From positions 1 through 60,291 of the IMG/VR virus record IMGVR_UViG_3300024346_000063: a stretch of DNA of 60,291 nt. The stretch is one strand, 5' to 3'. The notes below the pieces were generated by a model. It was not told the DNA's origin. It saw nothing but the letters and a program-made list of their open reading frames with translations, and searched no databases. Positions 12,338 through 29,322 of this stretch are shown piece after piece (the first letter of the stretch is position 1; each line of letters begins with the position of its first letter). The translations under genes were made by a program, and so were the position numbers. This stretch comes from a virus.

Positions 12338-15300
12338 ATGGCTATATTAACAAAATTTGCATCAGCGTTTACACTAACAACTGGGTTTAATGATAACTTC
12401 ACTAATCCACAAAATGCGTATGCAACAGATGGAGTTTTTGCCACTAATACAGATAGTAAACCGAGAAACAGAGAATTTGCTACGAATTGGAGAGGTTTTG
12501 ATTTTTCAGCTATTCCAACGGGATCAGTAATAAATTATGTTACGATTACAAATTGGGTAAAAATATCCTCAGCTAATACTTCAGGGCAATGGCGTAGTTC
12601 TGTTTGGGCTGATGTTACGGTTGCAGCAGCTTTAACAGCAGGGGTAACTGGTGCTATTGGAGATAATCAACAAGTGTTTCCTACTACAAGCACAACTCTT
12701 GCGAATTGGAATTATAATATGCCTACTCTTCCAACATTAGCACAATTAAAAGGAGCTAATTTTGGAGTAAGAGTTCAAGCGGCACAAGGTGGTAATGGAA
12801 CGATTTATACCTATTCAATAGATTCGATTTCTATAACCGTTGATTATACGCCACCTAATTTTAAGCCAACAATAGTTTTAAATACACCAGCTAACTCAGC
12901 TATAGGGCAAAGCCTAACCCCAAAATTAGAATTTACGGGTTCTGATGTAGATTTAGATACTTTAGAATATGAAGTTCAGATTGATACTGTTAATACATTT
13001 GACAGTCAAGGTTCTACACCTTTAATAAATGCCTTATCTTCTGTACCCGATGCAGGTTTTTTAAATACTGTTAATGGTGGAGATACGCATCCGTTTAATA
13101 ATAATGAGAAAATAAGTTATACGGTTCAAAGTGCTAATAAATTAACCGCAGTAACACAACACTATTGGAGAGCAAGAGCATTTGATGGTATTGATTGGAG
13201 TGATTGGAGTGCCTTTAGAAGTTTTACTACCCTTAATAATAGATTAATAGGTTTATCCTCTTCTGCAATAACAGTCACAGGTAATTTAACTGTTCAAGTA
13301 AGTGGGGAAATTTCTGGTAATACAAATAAGAGGTTAATTTATACTTATGATTTCGATGGGAGTGATGCTACCGCACTTGATGCTGATGGGGTTTGGACTG
13401 ACGAAATAAATATACAAGATGGGAGTCTTGCTACTTATGGTTCTACATCTACTGAAGGTAGTAATACTCTTAATAATGTTAAAATTGAGGGTACAAATGC
13501 ACCTTTATTAGCTATTCCTATTGATTATGTAGCAGCAAGAATGGATGTAGAAATAGATTCATTAGGAATGGATTCTACGGATAACTACATATTAAATACA
13601 CCTACAGGTGGTTGGACTTGGGCTAAAATTCAAGCATTAGAAGTTATTCTATGGAAAAGTAATGTAATCACTTATACCAATATCCGTAGTGAAATTTATA
13701 CTGATGGCTTAGGAGAAAAAGTATCACCTACTTATCTTACTCTAATAAAGATAGGAACAGTAGCTAAAGTATATAGAACTCAAATTGTAGTTGCTACTTT
13801 TGAAGAGATCGTATCTGGAACTACAACTACAGGTATTTTAACGGAAGCTGAAAATAGTGGAGCTCTTAGAGGTGTTATAAATAATGTTACCACTACAGTA
13901 GGTATTTTAAAAGGTAAGGCAAATTTAATAGGTGTTATTAATAGTTCTACTACTACAACGGTTACTTCTATAACTTTAAAAATTTATGTAGCTTCTAATG
14001 GTATTGCTACAGTTACAGGAGTTATTCATGCATATGCAAAAGCTTTTGGTGTATCAAATGGTGTTACTACAACCGTTGGTGTTATATTAGGTTACGCTAA
14101 AATATTTGGTATTTCTGATGTTATAGTATCTACACAAGGTATTTTAAGAGGTATAGCTAAAATGAATGGCGCTTCTAATACTTCTTCAACTACAGAAGGG
14201 ATATTGGCTAATGGAGTTATCATACAGCCTATTGATGGAATTATAAATGGCATTGCTACGACTAATGCTATTTTAACAGCTAAAGGGATTGTACAAGCTG
14301 TATCTAATGTTGCTTTAACTGTTAGTGGTGTACTAAATGCAAGAGGTTATTTAGTTGGTGCAATCAATACATCTACTAATCTTACAGCTATACTTTTAGC
14401 AAAGGGAAAGCTGGTTGGTTCTGCCGATGGTTTAGGTTCTTGTGCAGGACTTCTAAATTCTAACCTACAAGGGAGTGTTATCGTTAATACAACGACTAAC
14501 ACTTTTGGTATTTTAACAGGTGATGGTGCACTTGTTGGTTCTTCAAATGCAACTAATCAACTTATAGGTTTACTTTCTTCTTCACTTCAAGCTGTAGGAA
14601 CTACCAATGGTACTACAACAATTTCTGGAATATTACAAGCAAAAGGGGAGTTGAATGGGTTGAGTTTCAACCAATCAACCGAAGAGGGTATCTTAAATGC
14701 TATCGGACAATGTATTGGACAATCTATTGGACAGTGTACGATAGAAGGCTTATTAGTATCTAATATTATTTTTGGTACTGCTAATGGTAGTACTACTATA
14801 AGTGGTCTTATTTCACAAATAGTAAGTATTAGTGCTGTTAGTAATAATACGGCTTCAACATCAGGTTTACTAAATTCAAATCTTCAAGGTTCTGTAGTTG
14901 TCAATACAACTACAATAACCTTCGGTATATTAACTGCAAGTGGTTCACTTATAAGTGAAATTACATCAGTAACAACATTACAAGGTTTATTAAATGCTAT
15001 AACGCAAATTCATGCTGAATCCAACGGTCTGACGACTTCTGTTGGTGTATTGCTTGGTAAAGCGAGTTTGAGTGCAAGCGTTAATAGTTCATCGTCAGTA
15101 TCAGCAACATTAAATGGATTAGGAGTTAATGAAGGAACGAGTCAAGGTGCCACTTTGATTTCTGGAGTACTCTTAGCAAAAGGATCACTGAACGCAACTA
15201 TTAACGCCACTGCCTCAACAACTGCTACTATCGGTAGTGGTGCTATGTCAGCTACCTCAAATGGTAGTAGTTTATTATCAGGGTTACTAAACTCTAATTT

Positions 15301-16267
15301 ACAAGGCTCTGTAGTGGTTAATACTACTACGATTACAACAGCTACATTAACAGGTTTAGGACTACTTGAAAGCGTTACCAACGCTTTTGCGTATGTAGAA
15401 GGAATTATAAGTTCATTCGCTTTTATAATTGGAGAGAGCAATGGTCAGGCAACAACAGAAGGGATACTTACAAGTAATGCTATAAATGGAAACTCTTATG
15501 GTAGCACTACAACAAATGGTATTCTTACTGCTAAAGGAAATTTAAACGGAGAAATAAATACGTTAAGTATAGTTACTGCTATTCTTAATGCACTATCAAA
15601 TACAATAGGTACTTCTAATGGATTAACAACGATAACCTCAATACTTAAAGGTAAAGGATTATTATTAGGTATATCGAATGGTGTTACTACGACCAGTGCT
15701 TCTATAAAGTCTATAGGAGCATTGGAGGGTAGTAGTTCATCACTAACAATTTTATTAGGTTTCTTAGAAGGAGTAGGCTCAATAGCTGGTAGTTCCAATG
15801 GACAGGCCTCAACAGAAGGTATTCTTATTAGCGATGCTATGGCTGGGATTGCTAATGGAACAGCTACAACACAAGGAATACTATCAGCTATAGGCTTATT
15901 ATCAGGAGAGAGTAATGGTGTTACAGAACTGATTGCAGGACTATATCAAACAAACCCTATTTTCGGAACGATTGATGGAGATACTATATTGATAGGTATC
16001 TTAACGCAATCTACAGCTCTTTCAGGCACTTCTAATGGACTTTCTATTGTAAGTGGAATACTATTAGGTAAACGAGGTTTAGACGTTAAATGCTTCTATG
16101 AAGTGCATTATGTAGACCACCAATATTTGATTAAATATATTAATGTTAATTTTATAGTGCAATATTTGAAAGTTGAATATCTCACAAAATATAAGATTAC
16201 TAATTTTGTAGTACAATATCTAACCGAAAAATATAACTCAAAATATAAATGCGATAAAAATGGATAA
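12338..16267 (+). CDS. Large repetitive tail/appendage fibre
   Basis: A 1309-residue fibre. Residues 1-~175 form a beta-sandwich-like domain. Residues ~176-300 are fibronectin/Ig-like, with the typical phrases KPTIVLNTPANSA and HYWRARAFDGIDWSDWSAF. A further beta domain runs to ~490. From ~491 to ~1245 there are roughly 38 units of about 20 residues, consensus G-I-L-x-A-K-G-x-L-x-G-x-S-N-G-x-T-T-x-x, probably a continuous beta-solenoid or trimeric fibre shaft. A 139-residue super-repeat is marked by LLNSNLQGSVVVNTTT at residues 705, 844 and 983. The last ~60 residues change to an aromatic/basic repeat. No enzymatic motif is seen. The gene overlaps the next by 8 nt. It likely makes a host-binding appendage (inference). 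Confidence 0.75.
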   Translation: MAILTKFASAFTLTTGFNDNFTNPQNAYATDGVFATNTDSKPRNREFATNWRGFDFSAIPTGSVINYVTITNWVKISSANTSGQWRSSVWADVTVAAALTAGVTGAIGDNQQVFPTTSTTLANWNYNMPTLPTLAQLKGANFGVRVQAAQGGNGTIYTYSIDSISITVDYTPPNFKPTIVLNTPANSAIGQSLTPKLEFTGSDVDLDTLEYEVQIDTVNTFDSQGSTPLINALSSVPDAGFLNTVNGGDTHPFNNNEKISYTVQSANKLTAVTQHYWRARAFDGIDWSDWSAFRSFTTLNNRLIGLSSSAITVTGNLTVQVSGEISGNTNKRLIYTYDFDGSDATALDADGVWTDEINIQDGSLATYGSTSTEGSNTLNNVKIEGTNAPLLAIPIDYVAARMDVEIDSLGMDSTDNYILNTPTGGWTWAKIQALEVILWKSNVITYTNIRSEIYTDGLGEKVSPTYLTLIKIGTVAKVYRTQIVVATFEEIVSGTTTTGILTEAENSGALRGVINNVTTTVGILKGKANLIGVINSSTTTTVTSITLKIYVASNGIATVTGVIHAYAKAFGVSNGVTTTVGVILGYAKIFGISDVIVSTQGILRGIAKMNGASNTSSTTEGILANGVIIQPIDGIINGIATTNAILTAKGIVQAVSNVALTVSGVLNARGYLVGAINTSTNLTAILLAKGKLVGSADGLGSCAGLLNSNLQGSVIVNTTTNTFGILTGDGALVGSSNATNQLIGLLSSSLQAVGTTNGTTTISGILQAKGELNGLSFNQSTEEGILNAIGQCIGQSIGQCTIEGLLVSNIIFGTANGSTTISGLISQIVSISAVSNNTASTSGLLNSNLQGSVVVNTTTITFGILTASGSLISEITSVTTLQGLLNAITQIHAESNGLTTSVGVLLGKASLSASVNSSSSVSATLNGLGVNEGTSQGATLISGVLLAKGSLNATINATASTTATIGSGAMSATSNGSSLLSGLLNSNLQGSVVVNTTTITTATLTGLGLLESVTNAFAYVEGIISSFAFIIGESNGQATTEGILTSNAINGNSYGSTTTNGILTAKGNLNGEINTLSIVTAILNALSNTIGTSNGLTTITSILKGKGLLLGISNGVTTTSASIKSIGALEGSSSSLTILLGFLEGVGSIAGSSNGQASTEGILISDAMAGIANGTATTQGILSAIGLLSGESNGVTELIAGLYQTNPIFGTIDGDTILIGILTQSTALSGTSNGLSIVSGILLGKRGLDVKCFYEVHYVDHQYLIKYINVNFIVQYLKVEYLTKYKITNFVVQYLTEKYNSKYKCDKNG
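13810..16070 (+). repeat. Array of about 38 SNG-type 20-residue coding repeats
   Basis: Protein-level tandem array within the fibre gene, with a unit of about 60 nt. Conserved positions are a Gly-Ile/Val-Leu turn, an Ala-Lys-Gly or similar, and a Ser-Asn-Gly followed by Thr-Thr. DNA copies have diverged strongly at synonymous sites. Three 417-nt super-repeats begin at 14450, 14867 and 15284. Confidence 0.85.
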
Positions 16268-16622
16268 GAATAAAATCAAAAGAATAGATCGTGATACCAG
16301 CAAATTGAATTTTGTAATACGTTTTCCAAAAGGAAAGACTTATACAGATATTCAGGATATCATATTTTTGGTAAAAGAAACAGATGCTACTGCATTGGAA
16401 AACGCTTTAATTACAAAGCTGATGTCTAATTCAGAAATAGAATTGGTAGCACCTGAATCAGCATTAGTAAGCTTTACTACGAATGATTACGACCCTTTAG
16501 AAATAGCGACTCTTTATAGAGCTGCTTTATTCTGTAAGTGGAATGATACAGATGATTTTGATGAAAATGTAGAAAGGCTATTTGACTTTGAAATAACACA
16601 AAACTTTCATAATAATAATTAA
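16260..16622 (+). CDS. Small baseplate/fibre-base-type protein
   Basis: A 120-residue protein overlapping the fibre gene by 8 nt. It starts MDKNKIKRIDRDTSKLNFVI and alternates strands with acidic turns (DIQDIIFLVKETDATALENA, then a long segment ending in LFDFEITQNF). This is reminiscent of the N-terminal immunoglobulin-like domain of phage upper-baseplate (BppU-type) proteins, which describe a directive phrase with VKET and a 'Y..AL' strand. It may attach the fibre to the particle. The similarity is a memory-level judgement, and an unrelated small structural protein is also possible. Confidence 0.45.
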   Translation: MDKNKIKRIDRDTSKLNFVIRFPKGKTYTDIQDIIFLVKETDATALENALITKLMSNSEIELVAPESALVSFTTNDYDPLEIATLYRAALFCKWNDTDDFDENVERLFDFEITQNFHNNN

Positions 16623-17206: not shown

Positions 17207-17647
17207 ATGAAACCAATCGTGAAAGTACATAGATTTTGGCAAGATGAAAATCAAACATCAGGAAATATTACTGTTATTAGTGCTGATGATAATTTTCCAT
17301 TATATGCTTCTTTAGGTTTAGAAAGAGGCTGGAAAAATAATCAGAACAATATTAGTTGTATTCCTATTGGAACATATCAATTAAAGTTAGAATACTCACC
17401 GAGATTTAAAACAGACCTTTGGGAAGTTAAAGGTGTTCCGGGAAGAGCTGAATGCAAATTTCACGCAAGTAATTACTGGTTTCAATTAAACGGTTGCATA
17501 GCACCAGGTTTAAGATATAAAAATATGAACAACGACAATTATCGTGATGTTACTAATAGTTCTGATTCATTAAGAGCATTTCACGAAGCACTAAAACCCC
17601 ATACGGAAGCAATTTTAATTATAACAGGAGAACACAAAATTAAATAG
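17207..17647 (+). CDS. DUF5675-type putative peptidoglycan-active protein
   Basis: A 146-residue protein. The core pattern SCIPIGTYQLKLEYSPRFKT, then LWEVKGVPGRAECKFHASNY and NGCIAPGLRY matches the DUF5675 layout that I recall: a G-T-Y, an SPRF, a VPGR followed by an H in a short strand, and a GCI near the end. The H and C arrangement resembles the YkuD L,D-transpeptidase-like fold, so a cell-wall cutting or linking activity is plausible. Here the His is His91 in KFHASN and the Cys is in NGCIAPG. No signal peptide is seen, so it would rely on the holin-like partner upstream. Family membership is likely; activity is inference. Confidence 0.65.
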   Translation: MKPIVKVHRFWQDENQTSGNITVISADDNFPLYASLGLERGWKNNQNNISCIPIGTYQLKLEYSPRFKTDLWEVKGVPGRAECKFHASNYWFQLNGCIAPGLRYKNMNNDNYRDVTNSSDSLRAFHEALKPHTEAILIITGEHKIK

Positions 17648-19515: not shown

Positions 19516-22500
19516 ATGGAATTAAATTTCGAACAATTACATCTGTTTGTAGAGGGAATGAAAAGTTCCAGAGAACAAAATGCAGAAGAGCCAAGTTCTT
19601 ATGAATATGGTTTAAATGGTAGATTATATTCTGAAAATGGGAAGCTATCTTATTCTTCTATAAAAGGAACTGTTCCTATTTATAACAATCCTAAAATCAT
19701 AAAGTATTTAGGGTTTTATGCTTTTCCTGATGAATTATTGTTACTTGTAAAGTATGATGAAAATGCTACAGCCAATTTAACATCAGAAATTTCAACACAA
19801 ATTATAGCAAATGATATTTCTATCAATCTTGATTTTGGAACTACACAATATGTATTCAGTAATGAATTAAGTATAGGCGCTATTGAAAATATAAATCAAG
19901 CTACTGTTCAATCTTCTCCACAACCTGTAGAACCATTAACAGAAAATTACAATCAATCTGGTGAAATCAAAACGATTGATTTTAACGAGTATTATTTACT
20001 AAGTGGTAAAACAGTACCAAATTATCAAATATGCACATTAGGTAACGCTAATACTATTCCTGAATACAACAAACAGTACTCTGATGCTTTTATAGTTTTA
20101 AAGAATGATGGTTATCATGCTTTTAAAGGTAGATTAGCCTGGAAAGGAAATCTAAATTGGGATATAAATCGTAAGATAACAACAGTAGGAATTGATGAGG
20201 GTATTCATTACAAGCGTGTATATTTTACAGATAACTTAAATCCTTTACGTGTTATCAATTTAAAAGACAAAAATTTATTCTATAGAACATCAGAAGAATT
20301 TAATGTATTACAAGATGCTACATTATTACAACCTAAAGTAAGAAAAATTACTGAAGGAGGTTCTATAAAGGCTATGTCTGTACAATATGCGTATCGTTTA
20401 ATGACTGACAATGGACAAGTGACTTCTTTTTCTCCTTTTTCAGAACTTATAAAAATAGTAAAAGATGAAGATGGTTATGATTTTGCAGGTGGTGCAATTG
20501 ATAGTTTAACCTCTAAACGTGTAGAATTAGATTGCCCTATAATTTCAACACTATATTCAAAAGTTCAATGTATAGCTATAGAATTTAAAACTGATAGCAC
20601 ACCTACGTCTTTTAGAAATTTAGGAATACAAAATGTTGATAGTGTTGTTTCTTTTATCCACAGTGGAAATGAAAGTGAATTAGAAGATATTTTAACTATA
20701 GAAGAAGTTATTGAAACTAAACACATCTGGACATATTGTAATGATATAACTATTAAAAATAACAAATTAATAGCAGCAGGACTTAGAAACAAACCTTATT
20801 CTCTTCAAGAAAAATATGTAGAAGATTTATTCTTATTTAAAGGTTGGGATGAATTAGGTGCATCTCATGATAATGCTTTAATAAATCCAACTCCTACTAC
20901 ATATAAATATTTTGATCCTACATATACTGGGGATATGATATATGTAGAGAAACAATTATATACTCGTTTCCTATTTTTTGGAAATGTAACATTGACTTTA
21001 AATAACAAGTTAAATCCAAATATTAGAGAGTCTATAACTTTTAAAAGCAGTGCTGACCAATATATAGATTATACATTAGATGTTGGGGCTTGGTTAAAAG
21101 GATTAAGTGCTGGAAAGTTAGAATTGTTTCCAAATCTAAAAATAGAACAAATAGATTACTCTATTTTATTTAGTCCTATAGACGAGCTTATAAAAACTAA
21201 TATGTCTAACTATTATTTTACAACTTCTGTAACACAAGTTATTATAGATTTTGAAAATCAATATAGCATATTAGACACAGCTGTTAATCCTTCAGCTTTA
21301 GTTTTTGGAGCTCAAAGTATTGGCTTTAATCAAGGAACAGGTATAAGAGTTAGTTTCGAACAGCAGGAAGAAGCTATTTTAAATAAGTCACCAGAATTAT
21401 ATGATGGTGGAGAGCTTTTAAAATTACAAACACCATCTTTAAAAAAGACTTTTGTAAAAGATGAAATATACCGTTTAGGAATACAATGCTATAAATCAGG
21501 CTCACCTCTATTTACAATCGTATGTGGAGATATTAAAACACCAGCTGTAGGAGAGTTAGATTATAAGAACCAATCTGATGATGGAAATCAATTATTCGTA
21601 CATAGACTTGAATTAAAAGTTGAGGTAAGAATACCATGTGAATTTAAAGACTATATAGACTCTTATCAGATTGTTTATGTGGAACGTACAGAAAACAATA
21701 GGACTATTTTAGCACAAGGATTAGCTGGTCCACTTATTAGATTAGCAACTATAAACCACCCTTCTGTTAATGGTACAGCATATGCGCCTGATGTATATGA
21801 TAAATGGACACTTCCTTTCAATGGTGGGCCTTTATATTCAGTTAATGGCTTATTGACTTATACTATGTTAGGTGAGAATTGGGATGATTTTGAAGAATGG
21901 TCAGATGATTGGGGTGATACTTCAGATATACGCCAAAGAGTTTTCACACGTGAAATTGTAAATAGAAGAATGTTTTATTTTGATTCTCCTGATGCTATTT
22001 ATTCTAAAATTTCAGACCGTAATTTTAAAAATGGAAAGATAGAAGTCTTAGGTAGAGTGAATACAGACCATACAGGACATCTTATTAGAAGTCGTTTTCC
22101 TGGAGATGAAATTCACCCAGCTTATGTTCTTGACGTAGGCACTGGCATTGGACTTACATTTGTCAGTGTGCCTCCTGGATTTCAAGAAAGTGAAATTTAT
22201 AAATCATTGGCTTATTCTAAAAAGATAGGTTATACAAATGTTAGTGGTACAAGTTCATCTAAACCATATCACGTCAATGTAAGTGTATTCTCACAATTTA
22301 CATTAGATAAAAAAACAATAGAAATAGATAAGACTACAGATTTATTAGCTAAAGGTGAAGTGTTACCATCAGCGATATTAGGAACTTCATTTGATATTTC
22401 AAATATGGCTTTAACATTATTTGCTCAAAATGCTTATAACAGTTCACTATTTTTAAGTGCTGTTTATCATGATAGGTTACAGCGGATATTATGTGGTTCA

Positions 22501-25500
22501 CATAAATCCTCAAATAATAGTGAAGGATATCCATCTATATTTATTCGTGCTAAAGAAGATGTTTTTACAGATGATTTTATAGGTGCGCATAGATACAATC
22601 CAATAAAATCTAAACCTCATACTTGGGAAGGTGTAAGTAAGCTTGTAGATATTAATGGAGATTTAACAACTGAAGGTGTTCCCTCTACTGATGCACATGC
22701 TATTATCAATATAAAAATGGATAATGAAGGTAGCATATATGGAGGAAGAACAAAGTATGCTTTTTCTAAAAATGTATTTATACCATTGAGTGAAGTTATT
22801 CCATTAAAAGGAGCTACAGGAGATAACCAATCACAAAAATTTAATGTGCAAGGAGATTTTTATGTATCATTATTTTTAAGAACAAAAAATGACTACTCAA
22901 ATGCTTTACCTCCAGAAAAACACGATATGCATCAAAACAATAATTATGTTGACGAGCATTATTTTGCTTCAATAGATGATTGGAACAGAGGTGGTGCATG
23001 GGCTTATGCTGTAGTTTTAGAAACAGAAATAGAAAGTAGATTAGCAGATAGCTATCGTTTTTATAGAGCATCAGGTGGTGTTAATTTTGATTTAGGTATT
23101 AATGAATTTATCAATTCAGCATACTATAAGAAAAATGATTTAAGAAAATACATACCGGTTCCATTTAATTTTAAAGATGATCCTTTAATGGTAAGTAGTA
23201 TATCAGCATCTAAAACAAAATTAACAGGAGATTATGTTGATGCTTGGACTACATTCTTACTATATGAGTTCTATGAATTAGAAAAAAGTAAAGGTATCAT
23301 TACCAATATAACAAATTGGAAAGATGAAATCTTTGCTATTCAAGAATATGAAACCAATCAAATAAATGTTGATACTACTAATTTTGTAACAACTAATGAA
23401 GGTCAAAGTGTAGCTATACAAAAAGGAACAGGCTCTACTTTTACAAATCATAAGAAAGTAAGTGATTTTGGTACTTCTATTCGTAGAGCTTTAGCAGAGG
23501 GAGAATTTGGGTTTAGCTTTATAGATGAGAAGAACAAAGCTTTCGTAAAATTCGGAGAAAGTCTTAGTTTACCTTTAGAGATACAATTAAAACTACAAGA
23601 ATTATTCCAATACAATAAGATTATAGATACAGAAGGTTACTATGATGTAAAATATAAAGAGACAAACATTCGTATTCGTACAGAAAGTGGTCTTACTTAT
23701 CTACTATCATACAATGAACTTTTACAAAAATTCAATGGTTGGTTAGCTTATGATAATGACATTTATATCACTTATGACAAACGTGTGTTTGCACCATCTT
23801 GTCAAATCAGAACTGTTGTTTTAGAATTGCCAGAAATTTCAAGTAATCTACAAGTGGAAATGCAAGTAGGAAAATATTCTGAATATCAGATAACTGTTGC
23901 TGAAGAAGTTTCAGGAAAAGGAACAGCACCAAAACCAGTTAGCTATACAGCTACGAATTTACCTGATGGATTAAATATCAATATCAATACAGGATTGATT
24001 TATGGAGTTCCTACTACAGTCGGTACTTACAATGTTCCTATTGTCGTAACAAATAGCGTAGGAGTTTCACAAGTAATATTGATAGTTATTGTAAACCCAG
24101 CTACATTAGTTGGAGAAACTAATGGTAGTTCAGAAGTTATAGGAGTACTTGGTTATTTAGAAACTGTAAATATTGAAGGTATTTCAAATGGTCAAGCTGA
24201 TGTTTATGGTAAGCTAAAAGCTAAAGGTTTATTAGAGGTTACTATTAACGGTATAGCTACCACAAATGGAACTCTTATAGGTAGAGCATATTTCGATGAA
24301 GATATAAATGGTAGTAGTACTGTCACAGGTCAAATAGAAGCTATAGGAAGTCTTTTGGGAATATCTAATGGCGTAACATCAGTTGTAGGAGAAATCACTG
24401 GTAAGAGCTTTATTTACGGTATTTCAAATAATGTAGCAACAGTAGTAGGAGTATTATTACAACCATTAGAATTTACAGGTTATGCAACTACATATGATAT
24501 TACTAACGATTGTAGAATATTAGTAACTGGTACATTCTCTCAATATGGTACACCACATTCAAAACAAACTGTTAATGATATTGCAATTATTGATAGCTGT
24601 GGTAATTTAGATGAAACATTCAATGCGAATATAGGTCTTGGGTTCAATGACTTTATGTATTGGGGTTATGGTTCTGCAATAAGTCACGATGGCTCTATAT
24701 TTGTTGGTGGTTCATTTACTACCTTTAATGGAGTTAGCACAAATAGACTTGTCAAATTAAATCCTGATGGAACAAGAGATTGGTCTTTTGATATAGGAAC
24801 AGGTTTCAATAAAGCCTCTGCTATACCACTTATAAATAAAGATGGTAGTGTATTCTATTTCGGTAGATTCGATACTTACAAAGGTGCGTGGAGAGGTCAA
24901 ATAGTCAAACTAACTCCTAATGGAACAATAGACTATTCATTCAGTGGTTACTTTACGAGCAATATCCCTATACAGTTAATGGATGTTGGATATAACCAAA
25001 TGATAGCTCATGGATATACTGTTGGATATAATGGTAGCTATATCCCTCATATCGTTAGAATAGATAAAACAACAGGTCAACGAGATTGGACTTTTAATGT
25101 GCCAGTAGGACCTAACATTGCCGGAGAAGGAAAAGTAATGTTCAGTTTTGTCGATGGAGAAAAAATTATAATGCTTAGTCAATTCTTTACTCAATGGGAT
25201 AATTTACCGGCTGGTGGTATTGTAAGGTTAAATAGAAATGGTTCAAGAGATGAAACATTTGTTACAGGTACAGGTTTCACTGGTGGAGTAGTTTATAAAG
25301 GTGCTGTATTTGAAGGAAAATATATTATATCTGGTACGTTTACTGCATACAATGGAACACCTTGTCCTCGATTGGTACGATTAAATCAAGATGGTTCATT
25401 AGATAATACATTCAATTGGAATAATAATTATGGTGATTATGGACCTTACAATATGGTTGTAATGGGTGAGAACATTTATGTTTCTGAAGCAAGAGGTGCT

Positions 25501-28500
25501 GGAACAGCACAGTATCTGTTAGTTGTAGATAGAGATGGTAATGCTAAGAGAATGAAGAAAAACCCTAATAAGTGTATTCCTTTCTCTTGTGGTAGTAGAT
25601 TAAAAGGTGTTATTTATGCAAAAACATATCCTTATGGTATTTTAGGTGTTAGACCTAACGACCAAATAATAGGAGTAAGTAATGGTAGTGCTGTAGTAAG
25701 TGCTGATATAATTGACATGCCTAATCCAAACTTAATGGTAGGAGCAAGTAATAGTAGTTCTACAGCAGAATTATATGTAATTACTTTTGATACAACTTGG
25801 AATGTTAATTTGAGTGGTGGTCAGTCTTCTCCATCCGGTACATTATATTTTCCTCTAAATATTGAAGAAACTTATGATTTCATTATAGAATGGGGTGATG
25901 GAACATCAGATAGACTTACTAATGCTGGTCAAGCTGATAGACATCATACTTATGTTAGTACTGGAACAAGTATTTATAATGTAAAAATAAATGGTATTAT
26001 TCCTTTTCATTTTATTTTTGCAGCTTATGGTGTAACTTATACTGATGCAGCAAAATTAATATCTGTTGATAGATTTGGTCCTATGAAATTTTCTCAATTT
26101 GGAAGAACATTTAACGGTTGTATGAATTTAACAACTTTAGCTGATGATCCTAATTTTGAAACATTTACAAGTGGTGAACTTGTATTTCAAGATAATGAAA
26201 AATTAGTATCAGATATTACTAATTGGGATACGAGTAGAGTAACTACTATGAAAGGAATGTTTTCATACACCTCTAATTTCAATCAAGATATTACTAATTG
26301 GGATACAAGTAATGTAACGAATATGGAAGATATGTTCTTAAGTTGTTATGATTTTAGTATAAATCTTTTTGGGTTAGATGTTAGTAAGGTTACAAATACT
26401 AACCACATGTTTTACAAATGTTTTAAATTTAATGGTACAGTACCAGCATTTGGTCCTCTTTTGCAGAGTGCAATTCGAATGTTTTATGACTGTACAATAT
26501 TCAACCAACCTTTAAGTCATTTAGATGTAAGTGGATTGCAAAACGCAAATAGTATGTTTCTAGCTTGTACAACTTTTAATCAAGATATTAGCGGTTGGAG
26601 ACCTCAAATTACAAATGCAAATAGTATGTTTAATTATACTCCATTTTTCAATTCAGATCTTAATGATTGGGATATGAGTAATTGTGAAGAAATGACCTCA
26701 ATGTTTAGTGGTTCAGCCTTTAATAAACCATTAAATCTTTGGAATACAAGTAGTTTAAAACTTACTCGATTTATGTTTGACTATAATCAGGTCTTTAATC
26801 AAGATATTAGTAGTTGGGATATGAGAAAAGTAGAAGACGCAGAAGCCATGTTTCAATATGCTAATGCTTTTAATCAAGACCTTAGTGGTTGGCAGTTTGA
26901 AAATTTAAAACATGCAGGCTTTATGGCTGGTAACAAAGGATATACTGATGAATGGAATTTCTCTAAATTAGAGACTGTTAGACGCTTCTTTGGAGATGTT
27001 TATAAAGGAGACCTAAATAAATTTGATATAAGTAATATAACAGACTTTACTTGGATTTTTGGAGGAAGTAATATTAATAAAGATTTTTCAAGTTGGGATG
27101 TTAGTCATGTAACTACAATCAATTTTTTTGCAGGAAATAACGCTGCTTTCAATCAACCTTTAAATCATTGGGATGTTAGTAATGTTACAGATATGAGTCA
27201 AGCATTTTGGAATACACCATCTTTTAAACAAGATATTAGTGACTGGAATATTAGTAATGTTACAAATATATCTACATTCTTTGGTGGTACTACTAATTAC
27301 CCTACACATCTTGTTGATGCTTGTATAATAAAATGGAGTCAATTACCTTCTTTAAAAATCACTAGCATAACATTTGGAATTGGGAAGCATTCTGAAGCTT
27401 CGGTAGCTGCAAAAGCATTACTATTAAGTAATGGTGTAAATGTTACTACTGGTGGTTTGATGGCTGGAAAATGGTGTATAGGGAAATCTATAAAAGCTAA
27501 AGCTACAACAATAGGCTCTTTAAGACAAACAGTATCTATGGCCGCTACTTCAAACGGATTAGCTACTATAGATAACACTATGATAAGATTAGGAATATTA
27601 TCAATACAAGGAATTTCTAATGGTTTAAGTACAAGTTCACTTGCTACAAATCCTTTTATCCTTGAAGTTACAACTACTACACAAAACCAAAATGTGATAT
27701 TGCCTCTTGCTAAAACTTATAATTATGCTACTAATACAAGTCTTGTAGTTGAGTCAAATGTTGATTGGGGTGATGGTGTTGAACAATATATTGAGTCTAA
27801 TACTTCTCTTAATAAATCTCACATTTATGCTGAACCAGGAGTTTATCAAGTTAAACTAACAGGAAGAATAGATGCTTTATATCCACTTAGTTATGGAAAT
27901 ACTAATAGTGCCTTTACTGATATAATTCAATGGGGAACTAATGAATTTAAAGAATTAACAGGAGCATTTAAAGGTTATCCAAATTTAAAATCTACAGGAG
28001 TAGGACCAATATTTTTTTCAGGAGAACATCTTACAGGTTTATTTCAAGATTCTACTTTAATAACTTCTGTATCTGAAAATTTATTTACTAAATGTCCAAA
28101 TTTAAAATCAAATGCTTTTAAACAAACATTTAAAAATTGTAGATTAACAACAATTCATGAAGACTTATTTAAATCTAATACTGGAGTTTATAATTCAGCT
28201 TTTTATGAAACTTTTAAAGATAATAAGTTAATTTCAATACCTGAAAATTTATTCAGATATAATACAGAAGTACATGATTATGCATTCTATGGTACTTTTC
28301 AAAATAATGAAATAACAACAATACCAGTTGATTTATTTAAGTATAATACTAAAGCATTAAATTATACTTTTACACATACGTTTAATGGTAATTCACTTTT
28401 AACAGTAATTCCAGATAATATTTTCACGAATTTCAAAGGTACATTAGCTCCTTTTACTTCAACGTTCTCTAATACGGGTATTCTATCAATACCAGAAACC

Positions 28501-29322
28501 TTATTTGCAGGATTAGTAGATATAAAAGGTGGTGCTTTTTCAAGTACTTTTTCAGGTAGTCAAATAACATCAATACCAGCTGATTTATTTAAGGATAATA
28601 TAAATGTAACTTCTTTTGCGGGTACTTTTGCAGGTACTAAAATAACAACAATACCAGCCGATTTATTTAGATATAACACAAAGGTTGGTGTATCTGCTTT
28701 TAGTTCTTGTTTTAATTCTTGTTCAGAATTAGAAATAGTTCCTTCTGATTTATTTAGATATAATACAGAAGCTTCTGCTTCTGCTTTTATTTTTACATTT
28801 GCACAAACACCTAAATTAAAAACAATACCAGCTGATTTATTTAGGTACAATACTAAAGTAACGACAAATGCATTTCAATATCTTTTTTATCTTAGTGGTA
28901 TAACAACTTTACCAGCTGATTTATTTAGATATAATGTTTTAGCTAGTAATTACGCTTTTTATCTTATGTGTTATGGTGCAAACGAATTATTAACATTACC
29001 AGAAGGTTTATTTAGATATAATGTGAATGCTAATGTTGGTGCTTTTGATTACACTTTTTATGATTGTAATAAATTACAATTAAATAGAAATATATTTTAT
29101 AATGATGGAGAACAGGCAACACGCTTTGCAGGTAGTACTGATATAACTTTTTCTGCTACTTTCAATAAATCAGAAGATTTAGGATTACCAGGAGAAGCCC
29201 CTGATTTATGGAATTGTAACTTAGGTACTACACCGGGAGCACATTCAGGTACTTTTGGTGGATTAGGGAATAACTCAACTAGTTTAAGTAATTATAATTT
29301 AATACCTGTAGATTGGAAATAA
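19516..29322 (+). CDS. Giant modular tail protein: muzzle-like N-terminus plus adhesin ectodomains
   Basis: A 3268-residue protein. Residues 1-~1445 begin LFVEGMKSSREQN and SYEYGLNGRLYSENGK and contain a sequence like SYNELLQKFNGWLAYDNDIY near the end, a layout I recognise from the large crAss-like muzzle protein. Then come: an Ig-like (He-PIG) domain (~1445-1530; LPDGLNININTGLIYGVPTT); SNG repeats (~1531-1652); a beta-propeller of delta-60 type (~1654-2047; GGSFTTFNGVSTNRLVKLNP); SNG units (~2050-2088); a PKD-like strand plus BspA/DUF285 leucine-rich repeats (~2091-2605; NWDTSRVTTMKGMFS); SNG units (~2660-2710); and a PKD-like opening with a second leucine-rich array (~2715-3205; IPADLFRYNTKV). 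Host-surface binding is inferred from these modules. Confidence 0.75.
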   Translation: MELNFEQLHLFVEGMKSSREQNAEEPSSYEYGLNGRLYSENGKLSYSSIKGTVPIYNNPKIIKYLGFYAFPDELLLLVKYDENATANLTSEISTQIIANDISINLDFGTTQYVFSNELSIGAIENINQATVQSSPQPVEPLTENYNQSGEIKTIDFNEYYLLSGKTVPNYQICTLGNANTIPEYNKQYSDAFIVLKNDGYHAFKGRLAWKGNLNWDINRKITTVGIDEGIHYKRVYFTDNLNPLRVINLKDKNLFYRTSEEFNVLQDATLLQPKVRKITEGGSIKAMSVQYAYRLMTDNGQVTSFSPFSELIKIVKDEDGYDFAGGAIDSLTSKRVELDCPIISTLYSKVQCIAIEFKTDSTPTSFRNLGIQNVDSVVSFIHSGNESELEDILTIEEVIETKHIWTYCNDITIKNNKLIAAGLRNKPYSLQEKYVEDLFLFKGWDELGASHDNALINPTPTTYKYFDPTYTGDMIYVEKQLYTRFLFFGNVTLTLNNKLNPNIRESITFKSSADQYIDYTLDVGAWLKGLSAGKLELFPNLKIEQIDYSILFSPIDELIKTNMSNYYFTTSVTQVIIDFENQYSILDTAVNPSALVFGAQSIGFNQGTGIRVSFEQQEEAILNKSPELYDGGELLKLQTPSLKKTFVKDEIYRLGIQCYKSGSPLFTIVCGDIKTPAVGELDYKNQSDDGNQLFVHRLELKVEVRIPCEFKDYIDSYQIVYVERTENNRTILAQGLAGPLIRLATINHPSVNGTAYAPDVYDKWTLPFNGGPLYSVNGLLTYTMLGENWDDFEEWSDDWGDTSDIRQRVFTREIVNRRMFYFDSPDAIYSKISDRNFKNGKIEVLGRVNTDHTGHLIRSRFPGDEIHPAYVLDVGTGIGLTFVSVPPGFQESEIYKSLAYSKKIGYTNVSGTSSSKPYHVNVSVFSQFTLDKKTIEIDKTTDLLAKGEVLPSAILGTSFDISNMALTLFAQNAYNSSLFLSAVYHDRLQRILCGSHKSSNNSEGYPSIFIRAKEDVFTDDFIGAHRYNPIKSKPHTWEGVSKLVDINGDLTTEGVPSTDAHAIINIKMDNEGSIYGGRTKYAFSKNVFIPLSEVIPLKGATGDNQSQKFNVQGDFYVSLFLRTKNDYSNALPPEKHDMHQNNNYVDEHYFASIDDWNRGGAWAYAVVLETEIESRLADSYRFYRASGGVNFDLGINEFINSAYYKKNDLRKYIPVPFNFKDDPLMVSSISASKTKLTGDYVDAWTTFLLYEFYELEKSKGIITNITNWKDEIFAIQEYETNQINVDTTNFVTTNEGQSVAIQKGTGSTFTNHKKVSDFGTSIRRALAEGEFGFSFIDEKNKAFVKFGESLSLPLEIQLKLQELFQYNKIIDTEGYYDVKYKETNIRIRTESGLTYLLSYNELLQKFNGWLAYDNDIYITYDKRVFAPSCQIRTVVLELPEISSNLQVEMQVGKYSEYQITVAEEVSGKGTAPKPVSYTATNLPDGLNININTGLIYGVPTTVGTYNVPIVVTNSVGVSQVILIVIVNPATLVGETNGSSEVIGVLGYLETVNIEGISNGQADVYGKLKAKGLLEVTINGIATTNGTLIGRAYFDEDINGSSTVTGQIEAIGSLLGISNGVTSVVGEITGKSFIYGISNNVATVVGVLLQPLEFTGYATTYDITNDCRILVTGTFSQYGTPHSKQTVNDIAIIDSCGNLDETFNANIGLGFNDFMYWGYGSAISHDGSIFVGGSFTTFNGVSTNRLVKLNPDGTRDWSFDIGTGFNKASAIPLINKDGSVFYFGRFDTYKGAWRGQIVKLTPNGTIDYSFSGYFTSNIPIQLMDVGYNQMIAHGYTVGYNGSYIPHIVRIDKTTGQRDWTFNVPVGPNIAGEGKVMFSFVDGEKIIMLSQFFTQWDNLPAGGIVRLNRNGSRDETFVTGTGFTGGVVYKGAVFEGKYIISGTFTAYNGTPCPRLVRLNQDGSLDNTFNWNNNYGDYGPYNMVVMGENIYVSEARGAGTAQYLLVVDRDGNAKRMKKNPNKCIPFSCGSRLKGVIYAKTYPYGILGVRPNDQIIGVSNGSAVVSADIIDMPNPNLMVGASNSSSTAELYVITFDTTWNVNLSGGQSSPSGTLYFPLNIEETYDFIIEWGDGTSDRLTNAGQADRHHTYVSTGTSIYNVKINGIIPFHFIFAAYGVTYTDAAKLISVDRFGPMKFSQFGRTFNGCMNLTTLADDPNFETFTSGELVFQDNEKLVSDITNWDTSRVTTMKGMFSYTSNFNQDITNWDTSNVTNMEDMFLSCYDFSINLFGLDVSKVTNTNHMFYKCFKFNGTVPAFGPLLQSAIRMFYDCTIFNQPLSHLDVSGLQNANSMFLACTTFNQDISGWRPQITNANSMFNYTPFFNSDLNDWDMSNCEEMTSMFSGSAFNKPLNLWNTSSLKLTRFMFDYNQVFNQDISSWDMRKVEDAEAMFQYANAFNQDLSGWQFENLKHAGFMAGNKGYTDEWNFSKLETVRRFFGDVYKGDLNKFDISNITDFTWIFGGSNINKDFSSWDVSHVTTINFFAGNNAAFNQPLNHWDVSNVTDMSQAFWNTPSFKQDISDWNISNVTNISTFFGGTTNYPTHLVDACIIKWSQLPSLKITSITFGIGKHSEASVAAKALLLSNGVNVTTGGLMAGKWCIGKSIKAKATTIGSLRQTVSMAATSNGLATIDNTMIRLGILSIQGISNGLSTSSLATNPFILEVTTTTQNQNVILPLAKTYNYATNTSLVVESNVDWGDGVEQYIESNTSLNKSHIYAEPGVYQVKLTGRIDALYPLSYGNTNSAFTDIIQWGTNEFKELTGAFKGYPNLKSTGVGPIFFSGEHLTGLFQDSTLITSVSENLFTKCPNLKSNAFKQTFKNCRLTTIHEDLFKSNTGVYNSAFYETFKDNKLISIPENLFRYNTEVHDYAFYGTFQNNEITTIPVDLFKYNTKALNYTFTHTFNGNSLLTVIPDNIFTNFKGTLAPFTSTFSNTGILSIPETLFAGLVDIKGGAFSSTFSGSQITSIPADLFKDNINVTSFAGTFAGTKITTIPADLFRYNTKVGVSAFSSCFNSCSELEIVPSDLFRYNTEASASAFIFTFAQTPKLKTIPADLFRYNTKVTTNAFQYLFYLSGITTLPADLFRYNVLASNYAFYLMCYGANELLTLPEGLFRYNVNANVGAFDYTFYDCNKLQLNRNIFYNDGEQATRFAGSTDITFSATFNKSEDLGLPGEAPDLWNCNLGTTPGAHSGTFGGLGNNSTSLSNYNLIPVDWK
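24107..24470 (+). repeat. SNG-type repeats, linker 1 of the giant tail protein
   Basis: About six units of the same 20-residue repeat as the 12338-16267 fibre, including GISNGQADVYGKLKAKG, GISNGVTSVVGEITGKS and GISNNVATVVGVLLQ, between the Ig-like and propeller domains. Confidence 0.8.
25665..25780 (+). repeat. SNG-type repeats, linker 2
   Basis: Two units (IIGVSNGSAVVSADI and MVGASNSSSTAELY) separate the delta-60 propeller from the BspA-type array. Confidence 0.7.
27495..27645 (+). repeat. SNG-type repeats, linker 3
   Basis: Units with AATSNGLATIDN and IQGISNGLSTSSLATN lie between the two leucine-rich arrays. Confidence 0.7.
28560..29060 (+). repeat. Near-identical ~85-nt DNA repeats coding leucine-rich units
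   Basis: The phrase ACCAGCTGATTTATTTAGAT or a near copy recurs at about 28577, 28656, 28830, 28914 and, more changed, 28743 and 29000, one per 26-29-residue unit (IPADLFRYNTKV). Unlike the SNG array, nucleotide identity is high, which suggests recent expansion or gene conversion. Confidence 0.7.

Follow-up and report, generated by a model that had tools for sequence, protein, structure and literature searches.

How can a stretch of protein recur at fixed intervals, nearly unchanged, when the codons that specify it differ from copy to copy? This question is raised by a coil-rich open reading frame (ORF) in IMG/VR virus record IMGVR_UViG_3300024346_000063, of which we analyzed positions 1 to 60,291 (60,291 nucleotides [nt], here the window). 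A first-pass annotation had described a 139-residue super-repeat with near-perfect protein identity, and had ascribed its scrambled codons to strong selection on the protein together with selection against DNA identity, or to an old duplication under constraint. The recurring phrase, LLNSNLQGSV(V/I)VNTTT, does begin at residues 705, 844, and 983, at intervals of exactly 139 residues (417 nt), and its DNA differs among the copies as had been quoted. We find, however, that the phrase is a single 20-residue coil (here S) of a coil array and not a 139-residue unit. The features concerned are as follows.

12338 to 16267, plus strand: ORF of 1,309 amino acids (aa), a probable tail-fiber-like protein with an array of 20-residue coils (basis: ORF translation, coil segmentation, and position in a tail-gene cluster)
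13847 to 16057, plus strand: coil array, about residues 504 to 1240, about 36 coils (basis: segmentation)
14450 to 14509, plus strand: S coil 1, residues 705 to 724, LLNSNLQGSVIVNTTTNTFG
14867 to 14926, plus strand: S coil 2, residues 844 to 863, LLNSNLQGSVVVNTTTITFG
15284 to 15343, plus strand: S coil 3, residues 983 to 1002, LLNSNLQGSVVVNTTTITTA

Within the window array, no coil other than S has stayed nearly identical from copy to copy. Comparison of the three S copies with one another gives 16, 18, and 18 identical residues out of 20, whereas the 663 other coil pairs average 5.4 and never exceed 12. S differs from the ordinary coil pattern in that its glycine and hydrophobic positions are shifted. 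Coil length is near-constant across the array (20 residues in 30 of the 37 segmented coils and 19 in 4 of them), and 139 residues correspond to seven coils, one of which is a 19-residue coil placed differently in each interval. When the units are compared, the first 24 residues are alike at 19 to 22 positions and the other 115 at only 24 to 31. Corresponding coils of the three units have 5.78 of 20 residues in common, against the 5.71 obtained when coils are shuffled within units (P = 0.45; 0.46 in a repeat test). The window thus holds no 139-residue tandem super-repeat; only S repeats, and the protein identity that had been claimed for the whole unit holds for this coil and fails for the remaining 115 residues.

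We searched IMG/VR with degenerate S patterns. The same phage is present in three other records, in which the array is the same, the coil gene has at most one base changed, and the unit number is unchanged; the comparison of isolates that the first-pass annotation had suggested therefore yields no change in unit number. Beyond these records, S was found in only three further phages: 3300022204_000004 (G007), 3300020048_000349 (G034), and 3300007344_000327 (G010, in which the gene is ended by the contig end). A separate search with the G007 protein, over 31 records (30 reached via the terminase, G007's own included, plus that of G034; many are short fragments), matched 4. Another contig, G030, is nearly identical to G010 over the available part and ends before S. 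The S pattern also had one match in genome_contigs, on a Lachnospiraceae contig; by eye it lies between coding stretches, and we took it as chance.

Among the relatives, S recurs at intervals that vary by whole coils (6, 7, or 9), which makes these phages a small natural series. The window has three copies spaced by 139 and 139 residues (7 coils), G007 has three spaced by 120 and 119 (6 coils), G034 has four spaced by 179, 119, and 119 (9, 6, and 6 coils), and G010 has at least two, spaced by 180 (9 coils). Most S copies are alike at 14 to 16 of 16 core residues, the lowest value being 13. The order of coils is also shared: alignment scores were 44.8 for the window and G034 (shuffle maximum, 25.7) and 40.4 for the window and G007 (27.9), with a weaker 34.1 for G007 and G034 (32.0). 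In the interval from S2 to S3, five of the six ordinary coils of the window have partners in G034, and one is extra in the window. We considered equal spacing as a selected feature in its own right. Three random coils would be so spaced with a chance of 0.03 to 0.04, but given that the phages are related and that G034 has a 9-coil interval, this is only suggestive. In G007, two adjoining frames carry a coil array (L078 6667-10146 and 10150-15336), and S occurs in the second only.

The silent sites of S are saturated, at the level of random codon use, and those elsewhere in the genome are nearly so. Over the 26-codon stretch around each window S, identical residues keep the same codon in 7 of 22, 10 of 22, and 7 of 19 cases, where random codon use would give 10.0, 9.6, and 8.5; the claim that nearly every synonymous site had changed was thus overstated. 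Among 11 S coils of the four phages (the second, contig-end copy of G010 being left out), the same codon is used at 86 of 202 comparisons within genes (81.3 expected) and at 260 of 682 between phages (270.8 expected), and the two do not differ significantly (Fisher P = 0.29). Ordinary coils likewise share codons at about the expected level in the window (1472/3555, or 0.414 versus 0.417 expected), G007 (4416/12182, 0.363 versus 0.363), G034 (2368/6401, 0.370 versus 0.373), and G010 (1258/3147, 0.400 versus 0.382). Repeated 8- to 16-mers in the four arrays are about as numerous as in codon-shuffled versions, with significant depletion in none of the four genes; at k = 8, the real genes of G007, G034, and G010 hold more repeated k-mers than the shuffled ones.

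The comparison of synonymous and nonsynonymous change (pS and pN, by NG86) divides the unit in the same way. In the window S coils, pN is low (0.10 to 0.20) and pS saturated (0.65 to 0.78); random codon choice alone would give a pS of 0.69 (5 to 95% range, 0.46 to 0.91). In the rest of the 139-aa units, pN (0.56 to 0.62) is about equal to pS (0.58 to 0.67), so that the equality of the two kinds of change, which had been named as the outcome that would speak against the first-pass reading, is found outside S and not within it. Genome-wide, silent sharing between the window and G034, G006, G007, G010, and G030 is 0.485 to 0.533, against 0.452 to 0.468 for random codons. It is 2061/3870 (0.533; random, 0.465) for G034 and 1019/2099 (0.485; random, 0.452) for G006, a contig from the metagenome of G034 that may be the other part of the G034 phage.

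How, then, did S come to be repeated? In G007, corresponding coils of the three six-coil units have 11.1 of 20 residues in common, against 9.0 after shuffling (0 of 5000 shuffles reached the observed value). The six-coil unit as a whole is therefore still recognizable as a repeat in this relative, which argues that a super-repeat once existed. Codon sharing between the G007 units is only slightly over random (69/167 versus 60.1 expected), and this, together with the repetition of the unit, argues that the unit was duplicated long ago. We propose that a six-coil ancestral unit, some 120 residues long and including one distinctive coil, S, would have been tandemly duplicated long ago; that the ordinary coils would afterwards have drifted, with whole coils gained or lost (the window intervals are one coil longer); that purifying selection at the amino acid level would have preserved S at each of its sites; and that silent sites would have become saturated through age, much as elsewhere in the genome. 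We regard this evolutionary account, of old duplication, protein constraint, and saturated silent sites, as likely and hold it with good confidence. The fuller explanation, in which the constrained S coils belong to a tail-associated coil shaft of a crAss-like phage, seems to us reasonably probable. The suggestion of strong protein selection and an old duplication under constraint has accordingly held up, S being conserved in four phages with silent sites at the random level and G007 keeping the unit.

Several observations weigh against this account. There is no significant trace of the unit in the window (P = 0.45, as above) or in G034, where same-place coils gave a P of 0.21. Which G007 S copy corresponds to which copy in the other phages is ambiguous, and for G010 no correspondence of S is demonstrable, as none of its three pairings has coil-order similarity above shuffles. 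The structure models described below are poor (mean pLDDT of 58 and 49). S lies somewhat under the genome-wide level of codon sharing (z of -2.0 or -1.4, depending on the baseline), which plain aging would not predict. Finally, between the window and G034, the S coils share codons at 18 of 52 positions, while the ordinary coils between S1 and S3 share them at 73 of 105 (P = 4e-5). The last two observations are taken up after the role of S.

Both predicted models have an all-beta fold with two strands in each coil, and the coil shaft is probably a beta-solenoid. Part of the first model, of about residues 961 to 1240 and of low confidence, superposes on the solenoid structure 3p4g with a Z score of 20.7 and a root mean square deviation of 2.6 over 266 residues. 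In Foldseek searches with this model, 0 of 12 matches in the PDB and 2 of 157 viral matches reached an E value of 0.001 or better, which is a hint only. The RTX calcium motif GGxGxD is absent from all five proteins scanned. The likeliest reading of the coil protein is a tail fiber with a shaft. On such a shaft, we lean toward S being either a site at which a partner protein or neighboring fiber docks or a structurally special coil, over its having survived by chance. A narrower version, in which S would have no partner and would be special in structure only (as a kink, a turn, or a change of register in the solenoid), is possible if on balance doubtful: it fits the shifted glycine and hydrophobic positions of S, and the regular strands of the G007 model are broken at the S coils, but model confidence there is under 50, and variant coils of other kinds (those of 19 residues, for example) show no such identity. 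Either way, S, kept in four phages amid drifting coils, is the place to seek function on the shaft.

The low sharing of S codons between the window and G034 leaves a remainder. This comparison takes in each of the 20 ordinary pairs that align downstream of S1 (pairs before S1 align poorly and were omitted) and replaced an earlier set of 10 pairs picked for protein similarity. Ordinary coils after S3 have 55 of 99 codons in common (P = 0.017 versus S), and those between the S coils lie above the genome-wide level with a z of 4.8, a stronger outlier than S itself (-2.0). Our main reading of the remainder is that stretches of ordinary coils were exchanged recently or descend from a recent common ancestor, or else that S copies overwrote one another. 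Within window positions 13904 to 16057, ordinary coils have stretches of up to 35 nt whose DNA is identical to that of G034 (L075), with amino acid changes nearby.

Overwriting would mean that S copies occasionally replace each other by recombination within a genome, so that S coils at matching places in two phages are not true counterparts while the surrounding ordinary coils are. This would account for the low S codon sharing relative to the surroundings and for a slight within-gene excess in G034 (47/99 versus 38.2 expected). The codon of the fourth residue, AGT in all three G007 copies and TCA in all four G034 copies, points the same way; in the window it is TCT, TCA, and TCT. We nevertheless consider overwriting unlikely, as within-gene sharing overall is near random and no two copies in one gene are identical, in register, over more than 13 nt, which is short for homologous recombination.

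The other proposal, selection against DNA identity, holds that silent change is favored since recombination between matching DNA could otherwise delete the roughly 400 nt between S copies. The S coils would then be regularly placed, protein-identical contact points with a silent turnover faster than that of their neighbors, and, if true, this would be natural codon diversification guarding a functional repeat. The window-G034 contrast (18/52 in S against 73/105 between and 55/99 after the S coils) keeps this idea alive, and the window S copies have no identical run longer than 8 nt, less than random codons would usually give (P = 0.04). Short runs, however, have no counterpart in G034 (P = 0.46) or G007 (P = 0.71), the G034 copies lean the opposite way in the excess just given, and within-gene sharing of S codons is below neither the random nor the between-phage level. 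With ordinary coils equally random, repeated k-mers not significantly depleted in the four genes, and the coils between the S copies the stronger outlier, we judge such selection, and the combined reading built on it, to be quite improbable. Independent origin of S-like coils, more than once, from ordinary coils is scarcely credible: nothing speaks for it directly (the three pairs with G010 have no coil-order similarity above shuffles), and S copies share at least 13 of 16 core residues where the average for ordinary coils is about 5 to 7 of 20.

The phage itself can be placed by two genes. The large terminase subunit matches PHROGs family phrog_6681 (E = 8e-60) and, by tblastn, uncultured crAss-type records at 22 to 26% identity; the cr-numbered names among the records matched are those of crAss-like phages. 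A gene at 19516 to 29322 encodes the crassvirus muzzle protein (Pfam PF25731, E = 5e-68). Because of these matches, we assign the window to a crAss-like phage (Crassvirales). A longer record of the same phage is IMGVR_UViG_3300027751_000009 (78,890 bases). The coil ORF sits within a tail-gene cluster, with a PF23140 fiber protein upstream and the muzzle protein downstream. The latter has a C-terminal extension of about 1,800 residues that contains a few ordinary coils of 20 residues along with four matches each to DUF5122 (a propeller) and DUF285; it is likely an adhesive extension on a tail part. Inside the cluster, a DUF5675 protein is encoded at 17207 to 17647 (E = 5e-24).

Three further features of the coil gene and its surroundings have counterparts in the relatives.

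14201 to 14269, plus strand: 23-residue variant coil, residues 622 to 644, closely matched by coils of G007 and G034 and more loosely by one of G010; the coil alignment pairs it with G007 only
16061 to 16264, plus strand: Tyr-, Val-, and Lys-rich tail at the C terminus, residues 1242 to 1309; the G007 and G034 proteins end in a similar tail
16260 to 16622, plus strand: 120-aa ORF overlapping the 3' end of the coil gene, with a homologue behind the coil gene in G007 and G034

The N-terminal portion of about 500 residues (12338 to 13840) looks unlike the N termini of the relatives, which suggests that this part may be swapped among them; it matched no Pfam or PHROGs family. Neither the coil ORF nor its N- and C-terminal parts had a convincing match in Pfam or PHROGs, and so no known fiber family was matched by sequence; the coil proteins of the relatives likewise gave nothing convincing there. 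In tblastn searches of annotated phages, in which the low-complexity filter may hide the array, the window ORF had no match at 1e-5 and the G007 ORF none at 0.1. The G007 protein matched none of the sequences of solved structures at E values up to 1.

How does this array compare with known repeat systems? The Antarctic antifreeze protein of bacterial origin whose solenoid domain (PDB 3p4g) superposes on the coil model differs from the coil proteins, which lack GGxGxD, at 8% identity and a Foldseek E value of 9.5. The crassvirus muzzle (PF25731) belongs to the same phage and a nearby gene, and its extension has a few ordinary coils of the same kind; in the window it carries no S coil. Among crAss-like phages, tail-associated proteins are described (PMC6949934) as having tandem BACON domain repeats shaped by duplication and horizontal transfer. 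The coil array is like these in being a tandem repeat adjoining tail genes, and differs in its coil of about 20 residues and in having no BACON match in Pfam at E values up to 1. For protein repeats in general, the account by Persi, Wolf, and Koonin (2016, PMC5120217) describes quick divergence within a protein after duplication, followed by one-by-one conservation between species; viruses have 0 occurrences in its main text. The ordinary coils fit this two-phase course. S differs from it, being conserved between copies as well, and no description of this coil was recognized among the papers that our literature searches listed. The case shows how a protein-identical repeat with scrambled codons can stem from age and protein constraint alone, and explicit tests can separate this from selection against DNA identity. 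Duplication, divergence, and conservation of repeats, and repeats adjoining tail genes, are known; what is distinctive here is that one coil has escaped the divergence.

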